From assembly GCA_018335925.1 (NCBI GenBank), contig JAGXRF010000017.1:124001-188000 (forward strand): a DNA stretch of 64,000 nucleotides, written 5' to 3'. Source of the stretch: Flavobacteriales bacterium (lineage in GTDB: Bacteria; Bacteroidota; Bacteroidia; Flavobacteriales; Flavobacteriaceae). Positions 5,379 through 53,033 of this stretch are shown here, piece by piece. The notes under the pieces were generated by a model. That model saw nothing but the letters and a program-made list of their open reading frames with translations, did no database searches and was not told the DNA's origin. Each line of letters opens with the position of its first letter. The first letter of the stretch is position 1. Position numbers and translations under genes: made by a program.

Positions 5379-5525
5379 AGTTTCAGGTTTAAAGTTTAGA
5401 GTTGAAACATAGCAAAGCTTGTTTCAATGTCAACTAAGCCTAAATATTTAAAAGTTCAAGATTTAAAAAAATCTTGAACTTTTTTATGTAAAAATTAAAA
5501 CTTTGAACTTGAAACTTGAAACTTT
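5379..5525. repeat. GTTTAAA/GTTTCAG-type intergenic repeat, copy 1
   Basis: The gcvP-globin gap begins with AGTTTCAGGTTTAAAGTTTA and ends with ACTTTGAACTTGAAACTTGA, which are imperfect inverted versions of each other, with a terminator hairpin between them. Closely similar arrays occur at 10525-10601 and 18818-18890, so this is a dispersed family rather than chance low complexity. All three copies lie between genes of the same orientation. Confidence 0.7.
5450..5485 (+). terminator. Rho-independent terminator after gcvP
   Basis: A perfect 15-bp stem, AAAAGTTCAAGATTT paired with AAATCTTGAACTTTT around a four-A loop, is followed by further T residues. It is long and AT-rich and lies inside the repeat array. 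It should end gcvP transcription before the globin gene. Confidence 0.75.
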
Positions 5526-27143: not shown

Positions 27144-27998
27144 TCAAATTTTCAATTTTGCCATCATTTTTTTCCATCGATATTTTCGGATAAACTTTTC
27201 TTGGGCTTTGTTCACCATTTTTGGTTTTCGAGCAAACCACGATTGCAAAAATCCTTGTAAATAAGCAATCAAAAAATGAAAACTTTTTTTCTTCCAAGCT
27301 AACTTTAAAGATGCTATGCAAGTAATCCAAAAACCATAACCAATAGCATAAAAGGCTTCGCCTTGTTTTTTAGCTGCACTTGGGGCATAATTGGCTCCGG
27401 TTGGTTTTAAATGTTTTACTTGTAACGAGGTATCCGTTACTACTCTCCAACCATAAAATTTACATAGTAGCTCATCCAAAGTGTCCCATCCCATTTGAGG
27501 TTGTAAACCTCCTATTTGATTAAAAGCTTCTATGCGATAAGCTTTTAAAGCACCTCTGATATGATCTTGGTCTGTAAGGCTTTCTAAAACCCAATTCTCA
27601 TCTTTTTCAATGTAACAAAACCCACCTGCCATACCAATTTTGGCATCAGATTGAAAATGATTTAATATCGTTTCAAAGTAATTAGCCGGAAAAATTAAGT
27701 CTGCATCAATTTTGGCAATCACATCCAATGTTTCCTCTGCTATGGTTTGCCATCCTTCGTTAAAAGCATGAATTACTTTACTTCCAGGTTGGTGGGTAGC
27801 GGCTGACTTTTTACGCACTAAAGAAATAAAAGGATAAGTATCTACAAAAGTTTGTACTATTTTTTCCGTATAATCGGTTGAGTTATCATTTACCACCACA
27901 ATTTTTGTAGGTAAAACCGTTTGTTCTACCAAAGACTGTAGTGTGAAAGCAATGAATTTTTCTTCATTATAAGTTGGAATAACAATCGCGTATTTCAT
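27144..27998 (-). CDS. Family 2 glycosyltransferase
   Basis: A 284-residue GT-A enzyme. KYAIVIPTYNEEKFIAFTLQSL at the N-terminus, VVVNDNSTDYTEK, and the DAD-like metal motif in IAKIDADLIFP (near residue 115) are typical of GT2. A later ..WDTLDEL segment supplies the candidate catalytic acid. A hydrophobic stretch (FYAIGYGFWITCIASLKLAW) may hold it at the membrane. It starts 12 bases after the methyltransferase gene, the last gene of a KAS III-methyltransferase-glycosyltransferase cassette. The acceptor is unknown; an acyl-derived lipid is suggested by the cassette. Confidence 0.82.
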   Translation of the reverse strand: MKYAIVIPTYNEEKFIAFTLQSLVEQTVLPTKIVVVNDNSTDYTEKIVQTFVDTYPFISLVRKKSAATHQPGSKVIHAFNEGWQTIAEETLDVIAKIDADLIFPANYFETILNHFQSDAKIGMAGGFCYIEKDENWVLESLTDQDHIRGALKAYRIEAFNQIGGLQPQMGWDTLDELLCKFYGWRVVTDTSLQVKHLKPTGANYAPSAAKKQGEAFYAIGYGFWITCIASLKLAWKKKSFHFLIAYLQGFLQSWFARKPKMVNKAQEKFIRKYRWKKMMAKLKI

Positions 27999-28010
27999 CC
28001 AACAAATTCT

Positions 28011-28541
28011 TTAATTGGAGTTTACTTTTTTAGCATATACCAAATAATATCTAGGAGTAAACCACCGCAATAAAGGTCGGATGCCAAACTTTTTTACCGG
28101 ATGGGTAAACTTAAGACTATCTACTATTTCAAAACCTGCTTTTTGTAACAACCAATCTAATTGCCAGGCTTCAAACTCGTGGTAATGTCTGTCCCACGGA
28201 TCGGTTTTACTTTGGTAAGCTTTTGCAAACCACAATCGTAATGGCACCGAGATAAACACTTTATCTGCTTGCACATTTTTTAAGATGGTATATGGATTGA
28301 GCAAGTGTTCTACTATTTCAAATGCAGTAACTGCTTGGTAAGATGCTTTGTTAAGTGCTGAACAATCGTCATCTAAATCTTCTCCGTTGGTATTGATTAC
28401 TTCAAAACCTTTTTCTTTCATTAAATGAGATAACGGATTAGATACGCCCAAATCAAGAATTACTTCATTGGTTGAAAGATGTTTTTGTAAAAAATCTAAC
28501 GTGATTAGAAAGCGTTTTTGCGGATAGGTTTTTTCGTACAT
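28011..28541 (-). CDS. Class I SAM-dependent methyltransferase
   Basis: A 176-residue Rossmann-fold methyltransferase. The SAM-binding motif I is modified to VILDLGVSNPLSHLMKEKG, and motif EIVEHLLNPY lies near residue 85, as in UbiE/Coq-type methyltransferases (AFEIVEHL). The ORF track starts seven codons earlier at a TTG. It lies 43 bases after the KAS III gene and 12 before the glycosyltransferase, so the three are one transcript. The substrate is unknown. The C-terminal half has the basic LLRWFTPRYYLVYAKK end seen in lipid-acting members, but this is only suggestive. Confidence 0.78.
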   Translation of the reverse strand: MYEKTYPQKRFLITLDFLQKHLSTNEVILDLGVSNPLSHLMKEKGFEVINTNGEDLDDDCSALNKASYQAVTAFEIVEHLLNPYTILKNVQADKVFISVPLRLWFAKAYQSKTDPWDRHYHEFEAWQLDWLLQKAGFEIVDSLKFTHPVKKFGIRPLLRWFTPRYYLVYAKKVNSN

Positions 28542-28584: not shown

Positions 28585-29643
28585 TTACAATTGGTATGCT
28601 ACCGCATTGATATGCATCCCGGCACCAACAGAAGCAAACAATACATAATCTCCCGGATGTAATTCATGTGGAGGCAAATGTCCGTTTAAAATCATATAAA
28701 ACAAAGTAGGAACTGTTGCAACACTAGAGTTTCCGAGCGTTTGGATGTTCATGGGCATGATATTTTCCGGTGCTTTTTGTTGGTATAATTTATAAAAACG
28801 TTGCACAATAGCTTCATCCATTTTTTCATTGGCTTGATGGATCAAAATTTTACTGATTTTTTCTACTGGCAAGCCTGTTTTATCCCAACAAGCTTTCATG
28901 GCAGCTGGCACTTTTGATAAAGCAAATTCATAAATTTTTCTGCCATGCATTTTAATATATCGCTCTTTCTCTCCTTTTTCTTTTTTATTGCTTGGTCCAA
29001 AAAACAAATAGCCTGCTTCTTCTACTGCATAAGTAGCAGTTTGATGGGCTAAAAATCCGCCTTCTTCTTCCGTAACTGCCAATACTGTTGCACCAGCTCC
29101 ATCAGAAAAAATCATACTATCTCTGTCGTGCATATCTACCACTCTTGACAAAGCTTCTGCACCAATTACCAAACATTTTTTGGCCATTCCGGCTTGTATA
29201 AATGCTTTGGCTTGAATGAGACCTTCTACCCAGCCAGGACATCCGAATAAAATATCATAAGCCACACAATTCGGATTTTGAATGCCTAATTTTTGCTTAA
29301 CTCTACATGCCAAGCCAGGCAAAATATCCGATTGGATGGTATCTTTTTTAACATCTCCAAAATTATGAGCTACAATAATGTAATCTAACTCTTCTCCTGA
29401 AATTCTGGCATTTTCAATTGCTTCTTTTGCTGCTAAATATGCAATATCGGAGGTTTGCATTTCATCAGGTAAATACCTGCGTTCATATATGCCGGTAATT
29501 TCCAAAAACTTCTGAGCAATAACCTCATTGCTGTGTGGAAAAACCTCGCCATCTTCGGTATAAAACTCATGTTGAGAAAAATCTTGGTTAGAGATTTTTT
29601 GGGGTGGAATATAACAACCGTTACCAATGATTTTGTAGTGCAT
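28585..29643 (-). CDS. 3-oxoacyl-ACP synthase III-like (KAS III/FabH-type) enzyme
   Basis: A 352-residue thiolase-fold condensing enzyme. The active-site Cys lies in YDILFGCPGWVEGLI, the His in KILIHQANEKMDEAI and the Asn in QTLGNSSVATVPTLF, the Cys-His-Asn triad of KAS III. FabH of fatty-acid synthesis is usually about 320-335 residues and stands near plsX; this one is longer and heads a cassette with a methyltransferase and a glycosyltransferase. It is more likely a specialised condensing enzyme. The ORF track begins ten codons earlier; ATG at 29643 gives MHYKIIGNGCYIPPQK. A strong palindrome encloses its promoter. Confidence 0.85.
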   Translation of the reverse strand: MHYKIIGNGCYIPPQKISNQDFSQHEFYTEDGEVFPHSNEVIAQKFLEITGIYERRYLPDEMQTSDIAYLAAKEAIENARISGEELDYIIVAHNFGDVKKDTIQSDILPGLACRVKQKLGIQNPNCVAYDILFGCPGWVEGLIQAKAFIQAGMAKKCLVIGAEALSRVVDMHDRDSMIFSDGAGATVLAVTEEEGGFLAHQTATYAVEEAGYLFFGPSNKKEKGEKERYIKMHGRKIYEFALSKVPAAMKACWDKTGLPVEKISKILIHQANEKMDEAIVQRFYKLYQQKAPENIMPMNIQTLGNSSVATVPTLFYMILNGHLPPHELHPGDYVLFASVGAGMHINAVAYQL

Positions 29644-29648
29644 AATAT

Positions 29649-29687
29649 TAAAGCTAAAGTGCAAAATTAACAAACACTTTAGCTTTA
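29649..29687 (-). promoter_or_regulatory. Promoter and operator-like palindrome of the KAS III cassette
   Basis: TAAAGCTAAAGTG (29649-29661) and CACTTTAGCTTTA (29675-29687) are a perfect 13-bp inverted repeat. The 13-bp spacer contains TAATTTTG on the minus strand (29662-29669), which fits the -7 consensus TAnnTTTG, 19 bases before the ATG. A dimeric regulator bound here would cover the -7 element. The transcript should start inside the left arm, so it would not carry the full hairpin, and there is no following T run, so it is not a terminator. Confidence 0.6.
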
Positions 29688-29720
29688 TGTAACGAACAAT
29701 TAATAAAGTATTTCACTTTT

Positions 29721-29744
29721 ACATAAAAAAACTAATTTTTATGT
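29721..29744 (-). terminator. Weak AT-only hairpin after the pirin gene
   Basis: ACATAAAAA and TTTTTATGT can pair around a short loop. All pairs but two are A-T, so it is weak. It is listed because it is the only terminator-like feature downstream of the pirin gene. Confidence 0.25.
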
Positions 29745-29779
29745 TAAATAGAGAAATAATCAAAAATACTACTCTTTTA

Positions 29780-30496
29780 TTATGAAATTTGCATTGGAAC
29801 TTCTAATAATAGTAATTGCGTTCCATCTTGTACTTGAAACTTTACTTCATTGGCACCTACAATTCCTATGGCATCTCTTTGAGTAAGAACTTGGTTGTTA
29901 ATGGTAGCAGCTCCTTGAACTACCATCACATACAATCCATTATTTCCATCTTTCCATCTATAAGAAACTTCTTGAGTTTGGTTAAACTTACCTAAATGAA
30001 ACCAAGCATTTTGATGGATCCAAACCCCATCATCCTCAGGATTTGGTGACAATATTTGTTGCCACTTGTTAAACAAATCAGGTTGATGGATAGATAATTG
30101 TTGGTAGCGTGGAGTTACGTTCTGTTTGTTTGGGAACAACCAAATTTGAAACAATTTGGTTTGTTTGTCCGCATTCGGATTAAACTCACTGTGTTGAATA
30201 CCGGTGCCTGCACTCATCACTTGGATTTCTCCATGTTTGATAATAGATTGGTTACCCATGCTGTCTTTATGAGCCAAATCACCTTCTAACGGTATCGTGA
30301 TAATTTCCATATTATCGTGCGGATGGGTACCAAACCCCATACCGGGAGCAATAGTATCGTCATTCAACACACGCAATACACCAAAGTTTACTTTTTCTGG
30401 ATAATACCAATTGGCAAAACTAAAACTGTGATACGCGTTTAACCATCCGTGGTTGGCATGGCCACGTTCGTTGGCAGGATATAATATTGTTTTCAT
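29780..30496 (-). CDS. Pirin family protein
   Basis: A 238-residue bicupin. The N-terminal cupin holds the metal-binding set GFGTHPHDNMEIITIPLEGD and IQHSEFN, matching the conserved His and Glu ligands of pirins. Some bacterial pirins show quercetinase activity, others regulate enzymes; the role here is unknown. It is a single-gene unit. A TAATTTTG -7 element lies 46 bases upstream of the ATG. The C-terminal cupin has lost the metal ligands, as is usual for the family. Confidence 0.9.
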   Translation of the reverse strand: MKTILYPANERGHANHGWLNAYHSFSFANWYYPEKVNFGVLRVLNDDTIAPGMGFGTHPHDNMEIITIPLEGDLAHKDSMGNQSIIKHGEIQVMSAGTGIQHSEFNPNADKQTKLFQIWLFPNKQNVTPRYQQLSIHQPDLFNKWQQILSPNPEDDGVWIHQNAWFHLGKFNQTQEVSYRWKDGNNGLYVMVVQGAATINNQVLTQRDAIGIVGANEVKFQVQDGTQLLLLEVPMQIS

Positions 30497-31665: not shown

Positions 31666-31697
31666 GCCCATATGCAATAAACATATGGGCATTTTTA
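31666..31697. terminator. Terminator between convergent genes
   Basis: GCCCATATG and CATATGGGC form a perfect 9-bp stem around CAATAAA, followed by ATTTTTATTT. It separates the T9SS protein from the Crp-like gene and could act on both strands. Confidence 0.85.
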
Positions 31698-32270
31698 TTT
31701 CCGCAATAATTTAGCTTTCATTTTGCTAAAAAATTCAGGAGTAACTCCCAAGTAGGAAGCTATGTATTTTTGAGAAACTCTTTGTATTAAAGATGGATAT
31801 TTATTGCAAAACTTTACAAAACGTTCTTCGGCAGATAAACTTAAATTATCTAGCAATCTTTCTTGATGAGCTACTAATGAATTCTCTGCTAAAATCCTGA
31901 AAAAACGTTCCAACTTTGGCAATTTTTGGTACAGAACCTCTTGGTTATCTTTGGTTAAAATTACCAATGTAGCGTCTTCTAAAACCTCTATAAACAAGTT
32001 ACCTGGCTTTTGTGAAAAATAACTATACATATCTGCCATCCACCAACCTTCGCATGCAAAATGTAAAATTTGTTCATGGATGTTATCTTTTACACTAAAA
32101 TTTCGCAATACTCCTGATAAAACAAAATACGTTTGGTTGGAAATGGTTCCTGCTTGTTGCAAAATGGTTTTGGCCGGATAGCTATTTATCTCAACCACCG
32201 ATTGCAACAATTGTTGCTCTTCCAAAGAAAGAGGGACATGTTTTTGTATGTTTTGAAAAAGTAATTCCAT
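31695..32270 (-). CDS. Crp/Fnr family transcriptional regulator
   Basis: A 191-residue regulator. The N-terminal cyclic-nucleotide-binding-like beta-roll (SYPAKTILQQAGTISNQTYF...LSGVLRNFSV) spans about residues 20-115. The C-terminal winged helix has VSQKYIASYLGVTPEFFSKM as the recognition segment. It has no cysteine cluster of the Fnr type, and the cAMP-binding RxS pattern is not evident. Many flavobacterial genomes hold several such short regulators with unknown signals. It stands alone, downstream of a repeat element. Confidence 0.85.
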   Translation of the reverse strand: MELLFQNIQKHVPLSLEEQQLLQSVVEINSYPAKTILQQAGTISNQTYFVLSGVLRNFSVKDNIHEQILHFACEGWWMADMYSYFSQKPGNLFIEVLEDATLVILTKDNQEVLYQKLPKLERFFRILAENSLVAHQERLLDNLSLSAEERFVKFCNKYPSLIQRVSQKYIASYLGVTPEFFSKMKAKLLRK

Positions 32271-52886: not shown

Positions 52887-53033
52887 TACCCTAGCCCTGA
52901 TGGCAGTGGCAGCCTTGTGCAGACAAATGTTTGTTTTTGTTGGTTGTACCAAGCGACCAACGGAAGCTTGGTAAAGCCTTACAAAAACTGCATTTGGCAA
53001 ACAAGCTAGAACGGACAGCAGGAATTAGCTTCA
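52887..53033 (+). ncRNA. Nested-hairpin RNA-like element
   Basis: A 147-base stretch that can fold into one long nested hairpin. The base has CTAG and CCTG paired with CAGG and ATTAG (one G-U). Moving inward, CTTGT pairs with ACAAG, CAAATG with CATTTG, GTTTTTGT with ACAAAAAC (perfect), and ACCAAGC with GCTTGGT. The ends CTAGCCCTGATGGCAG and ACGGACAGCAGGAATTAGC flank the variable inner stem. From memory such a conserved frame with a variable hairpin recurs in flavobacterial intergenic regions; I could not search. It might match a known Bacteroidota RNA motif such as Flavo-1 in Rfam. It is more than a terminator because of its length and unpaired conserved flanks. Confidence 0.55.

Follow-up and report, generated by a model that had tools for sequence, protein, structure and literature searches.

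In IS10-type protection against read-through translation, a gene start is masked when read-through RNA pairs across an inverted repeat. A hairpin with promoters inside it is known from the leader of gene e (lysozyme) of phage T4 (PMC3014915, which cites McPheeters et al. 1986), where the 5′ strand of the stem harbours late promoters; the short RNAs from these are well translated, while the long transcripts fold and give ~100-fold less synthesis (PMC3014915). In Flavobacterium johnsoniae, the -7 element of promoters is TAHHTTTG, with G at −5, and A residues at leader positions −3, −6 and −12 are favourable, while structure near the start codon accompanies lower translation (PMC6847099). Start sites of F. 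psychrophilum have the same pattern, TAnnTTTG (PMC9723704).

Organisation of the KAS III cassette

The DNA analysed (the window) is a 64,000-nt stretch of a Flavobacterium contig. It includes a cassette of three genes, the first of which is KAS III-like, and a pirin gene upstream:

27144..27998, minus strand: family 2 glycosyltransferase gene, gene 3 of the cassette
28011..28541, minus strand: methyltransferase gene (Methyltransf_23), gene 2 of the cassette
28585..29643, minus strand: KAS III-like gene, 352 aa, with ATG at 29643
29780..30496, minus strand: pirin gene, the next gene upstream in the same orientation, from which read-through may come

The window's own genes were scanned, and gene names in relatives were assigned by inspection of translations. 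In the relatives examined, the usual order is gcvP - (truncated haemoglobin) - KAS III - methyltransferase - glycosyltransferase 2 - mlaE - mlaF, and this conserved neighbourhood (relatives L033–L099) suggests a lipid or envelope role. In the window, the neighbourhood is broken on both sides, and the KAS III/methyltransferase/glycosyltransferase 2 trio lies between pirin and a cold-shock gene and aspS. Thus, the trio appears to have moved together with its promoter.

Inverted repeat upstream of the KAS III gene

An inverted repeat with 13-bp arms and no mismatch, TAAAGCTAAAGTG-N13-CACTTTAGCTTTA, is located at 29649–29687 between the pirin and KAS III-like genes. It had been described in a sequence-only reading of this DNA, and both its sequence and its coordinates were found to be exact. 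In gene-strand order, the segment reads TAAAGCTAAAGTG-TTTGTTAATTTTG-CACTTTAGCTTTA-ATATT-ATG, the last triplet being the start of the KAS III-like gene. The following features are distinguished in the intergenic region:

29644..29657, minus strand: predicted leader of 14 nt carrying A at −3, −6 and −12, its start deduced from the -7 box
29649..29661, minus strand: 3′ arm CACTTTAGCTTTA, predicted to cover −4 to +9, with its end within the translation initiation region
29662..29669, minus strand: -7 box TAATTTTG, consensus TAHHTTTG (PMC6847099, PMC9723704), 18 nt before the ATG and position-conserved in orthologs
29662..29674, minus strand: spacer TTTGTTAATTTTG of 13 nt, the loop of a hairpin if transcribed
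29675..29687, minus strand: 5′ arm TAAAGCTAAAGTG (gene strand), predicted to cover −30 to −18, positions being counted from the -7 box, whose G is taken as −5 (PMC6847099)
29717..29748, minus strand: imperfect AT-only stem between pirin and the palindrome, a weak terminator candidate (−8.7 kcal/mol over 29710–29752)

Within each arm, TAAAG is directly repeated at a 6-bp step. The palindrome is not followed by a T run on either strand.

The significance of the repeat was assessed in dinucleotide shuffles by counting perfect inverted repeats with arms of at least 13 bp and a spacer of 3–20. Such a repeat was present in 6.4% of 500 shuffled 64-kb windows (mean 0.07 per window), and in 2.2% when each arm had to contain 4 or more G/C. 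When the 136-nt intergenic region was shuffled alone, the figure was 0.135%; hence, the palindrome is striking locally and only mildly so globally. As an inverted repeat centred on the -7 box, it is the strongest of the 71 orthologous promoters with a recognisable box (score 15.4), and 0 of ~1400 shuffles got to 14 by the same score.

Only one perfect inverted repeat in the window is longer: AAAAGTTCAAGATTT at 5450–5483, with 15-bp arms and a 4-nt loop.

Promoter of the cassette

A set of 112 distinct upstream regions of KAS III orthologs was used for comparison. A TANNTTNG -7 box was found 10–32 nt ahead of the ATG in 71 of them, and its position shows a clear peak, with 62 matches at 15–24 nt before the ATG (two bins) versus ~0–5 per 5-nt bin farther upstream. 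The TAATTTTG box of the window fits the -7 patterns of both F. johnsoniae and F. psychrophilum and would place the start of transcription at ~29657. Relative to this predicted start, the palindrome runs from −30 to +9; its 5′ arm lies above the -7 box, and its 3′ arm extends over the start and the leader. The suggestion that the palindrome encloses a -7 box on the minus strand was therefore confirmed by the conserved position of the box in orthologs, and, as judged from these sequences, it is well supported that the KAS III cassette has a real promoter within the palindrome.

Predicted folding in read-through transcripts

The reading favoured here, tentatively and with a probability of roughly 0.35, is that the palindrome may act as an RNA hairpin in transcripts reading through from pirin and so block translation of the KAS III gene. 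As gene-strand RNA, the palindrome is predicted to fold with −16.5 kcal/mol. In read-through RNA from pirin, it would form a stem of 13–14 bp covering the mRNA up to −6 relative to the KAS III start codon, which would reduce translation. Since the position-conserved -7 box lies in the loop, transcripts born at the internal promoter (~29657) should lack the 5′ arm; they would have an open leader of 14 nt and be translated. Long RNAs would thus fold and promoter-born RNAs stay open, so that the cassette would be insulated from upstream transcription and expressed solely via its own promoter. The predicted mean unpaired probability at −15 to −1 is 0.87 in a transcript from 29657 versus 0.28 in a read-through transcript from the end of pirin; i.e. 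only in the long transcripts would the predicted stem mask the region where translation is initiated.

The arrangement of the genes is favourable for such a block: pirin is codirectional, its stop lies 137 nt from the KAS III ATG, and a terminator scan gave no canonical terminator in the interval. Read-through from pirin, the exact start site and the effect on translation are putative. Some points count against the hairpin. The AUG itself is outside the stem, and the structure is not kept in relatives: across the 71 orthologs, the mean predicted occlusion in read-through transcripts is 0.178, compared with 0.175 in shuffled upstream DNA, and the orthologs as a group show no excess over shuffles. 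The window's own locus stands no higher than about the 97th percentile of shuffles.

Other RNA structures were considered. An attenuator-like pairing of 29684–29692 with 29719–29727 was rejected at −4.5 kcal/mol (46-nt segment), versus −16.5 kcal/mol for the palindrome. Promoter hairpins were likewise rejected as a recurrent trait of the orthologs: 3 of 71, namely the window's own, L021 and L161, are in the upper tail of inverted-repeat scores, but predicted folding gave the orthologs no excess over shuffles. Covariation in close relatives was set aside, as the best orthologs found are 68% identical and thus too distant for alignment of the promoters. There was no Rfam match at gathering score at the palindrome locus. 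Elsewhere in the window, a Flavo-1 RNA is recognised by Rfam at 52889–53029 (46.8 bits).

The KAS III promoters of two relatives (L021 and L161) contain long imperfect inverted repeats, with arms of 19 and 21 nt, that surround the -7 box and extend as far as the start codon. Their sequences are unrelated to the palindrome of the window.

The proposed hairpin resembles that of T4 gene e in that the translation start is masked by a stem with an internal promoter in its 5′ strand, such that long RNAs fold and short ones do not. It differs in that the ribosome needs no Shine-Dalgarno sequence here and the start codon is not included in the stem; furthermore, the structure in the window is not conserved in relatives and is known from sequence and predicted folding. 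Folding of read-through RNA on an inverted repeat over a gene start is also proposed here as in IS10-type protection, whereas no mobile element is present at the palindrome and its sequence is single-copy.

Alternative explanations

Because the orthologs behave like shuffles and the locus itself is at about the 97th percentile, a palindrome with no function of its own is nearly as likely as a functional hairpin. It would have arisen either as a chance repeat or as a quasi-palindrome perfected by template switching in replication. This accords with its single copy, its restriction to one lineage and the lack of any tendency to such structures in the orthologous promoters as a group. A repeat of this length is present in ~6% of shuffled windows, so that a genome of 3.6 Mb should contain several, and the number of windows scanned was large. 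The low local chance (0.14%) argues against a neutral origin, and the centring of the palindrome on the -7 box would be a further coincidence.

In the sequence-only reading, the palindrome was taken for a strong operator of a dimeric regulator encoded elsewhere. In pattern searches of the genome, no second copy was found with up to 3 mismatches tolerated. A search with the inner 8-mers at any spacing of 2–30 recovered only the palindrome itself, and the outer 7-mers occur at 5 genomic places versus 2 in the control, the other places lacking the inner repeat. A relaxed 18-base pattern gave only three poor matches genome-wide. Single arms with at most 1 mismatch gave 13 genomic matches, including the palindrome's own two, versus 9 for the reversed control; the 11 further matches are background, all lie within ORFs, and no other intergenic copy of an arm is present among them.

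Conservation was likewise absent. None of 399 other genomes of the genus contains a copy with 12-bp arms, and no such repeat lies on the promoter upstream of the KAS III orthologs, the very comparison with related species by which the operator had been proposed to stand or fall. Half-sites for one dimer are usually about one to one and a half helical turns apart, though exceptions exist. The centres of the arms are 26 bp apart, or ~2.5 helical turns, a spacing that, on general grounds, would not readily suit one dimer. Given the lack of recurrence and of conservation, an operator of a regulon is not supported. As it was found nowhere else in the genome or the relatives searched, the palindrome is more probably an RNA hairpin peculiar to this lineage, or fortuitous, than a multi-gene switch.

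An operator with a single target, on which a tetramer or two dimers would hold both arms and block RNA polymerase at the KAS III promoter only, is unlikely. The span of −30 to +9 is the best place for occlusion, each arm has its TAAAG direct repeat, and the palindrome has a low local probability of arising by chance. However, the genome shows neither a second site nor enrichment of half-sites, the palindrome is conserved neither in the 399 genomes of the genus nor in the orthologous promoters, and the half-site centres are ~2.5 helical turns apart. Furthermore, no regulator gene is divergent from, or next to, the KAS III gene. The earlier statement that no regulator is adjacent holds only roughly: a gene for a cNMP-binding (Crp/Fnr-type) protein is located at 31695–32270, ~2 kb upstream.

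An intrinsic terminator of the upstream pirin unit is improbable: the palindrome forms a strong stem 92 nt past the pirin stop and no other canonical terminator precedes KAS III, but neither strand has a U tract after the stem, the terminator scan did not call it, the spacer is 13 nt long, and the structure sits on a downstream promoter. Origin from a repeat family or mobile element and viral origin were rejected, as no good second copy of the intergenic DNA exists elsewhere in the genome and the palindrome has no match in viral contigs.

During the genome searches, matches on contig C17 (~33.8–54 kb) were seen to recur in reverse order on contig C43, with positions summing to ~96,278. Such a pattern would be expected if C43 repeated part of C17 in inverted form, through strain mixture or duplication, which is consistent with the contamination estimate of 5.9%.

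A putative MarR-type operator in related promoters

A different palindrome, TATGCRYGCATA, a probable MarR/beta-oxidation operator, is present in 24 of the 112 orthologous KAS III promoters (e.g. L020, L023, L048, L065 and L099). Of the 17 that have a recognisable -7 box, 15 carry it at a fixed distance of 34 nt above that box. In the organism's own genome and the relatives searched (L193–L207), all copies whose context was examined are intergenic, and reversed-pattern controls gave none. The genes preceded by TATGCRYGCATA are those for a MarR protein, etfBA, an SDR-type dehydrogenase (293 aa), KAS III and an outer-membrane-type protein. The distances between TATGCRYGCATA and the -7 box are ~11–14, 21–23 and 34 nt, which are roughly helical steps.

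The genome studied has three copies, at C98:6756 and C98:6785 (L191, L192) and at C18:151970 (L190). Two sites precede a MarR gene, by genes for a 3-hydroxyacyl-CoA dehydrogenase and an AMP-binding ligase, and one precedes etfB. All three are on contigs other than that of the window, and TATGCRYGCATA is absent from the window's KAS III promoter. The MarR protein would be the one that binds these sites, and TATGCRYGCATA likely marks a MarR-controlled fatty-acid degradation regulon of Flavobacterium, as suggested by the genes that it precedes. Like the palindrome of the window, TATGCRYGCATA is a palindrome upstream of KAS III genes of this orthologous group; it differs in sequence, in lying above the promoter core and in recurring across a regulon.

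These observations admit a broader scenario, in which the cassette was rewired in this lineage, from gcvP/mlaEF to behind pirin and without the putative MarR/beta-oxidation operator found in many relatives, and the new palindrome serves as a private switch or translational insulator. Taken as a whole, this is more doubtful than the single-target operator considered above.

If the proposed hairpin does insulate the cassette, it would be a bacterial case of a promoter inside a hairpin, as in phage T4, from a phylum whose members do without Shine-Dalgarno sequences. Otherwise, the palindrome is a warning against taking every perfect palindrome at a promoter for an operator. The TATGCRYGCATA site merits more attention than the palindrome of the window. 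By this comparison, the conserved KAS III cassette of many flavobacteria belongs to an apparent MarR-controlled regulon of fatty-acid degradation.
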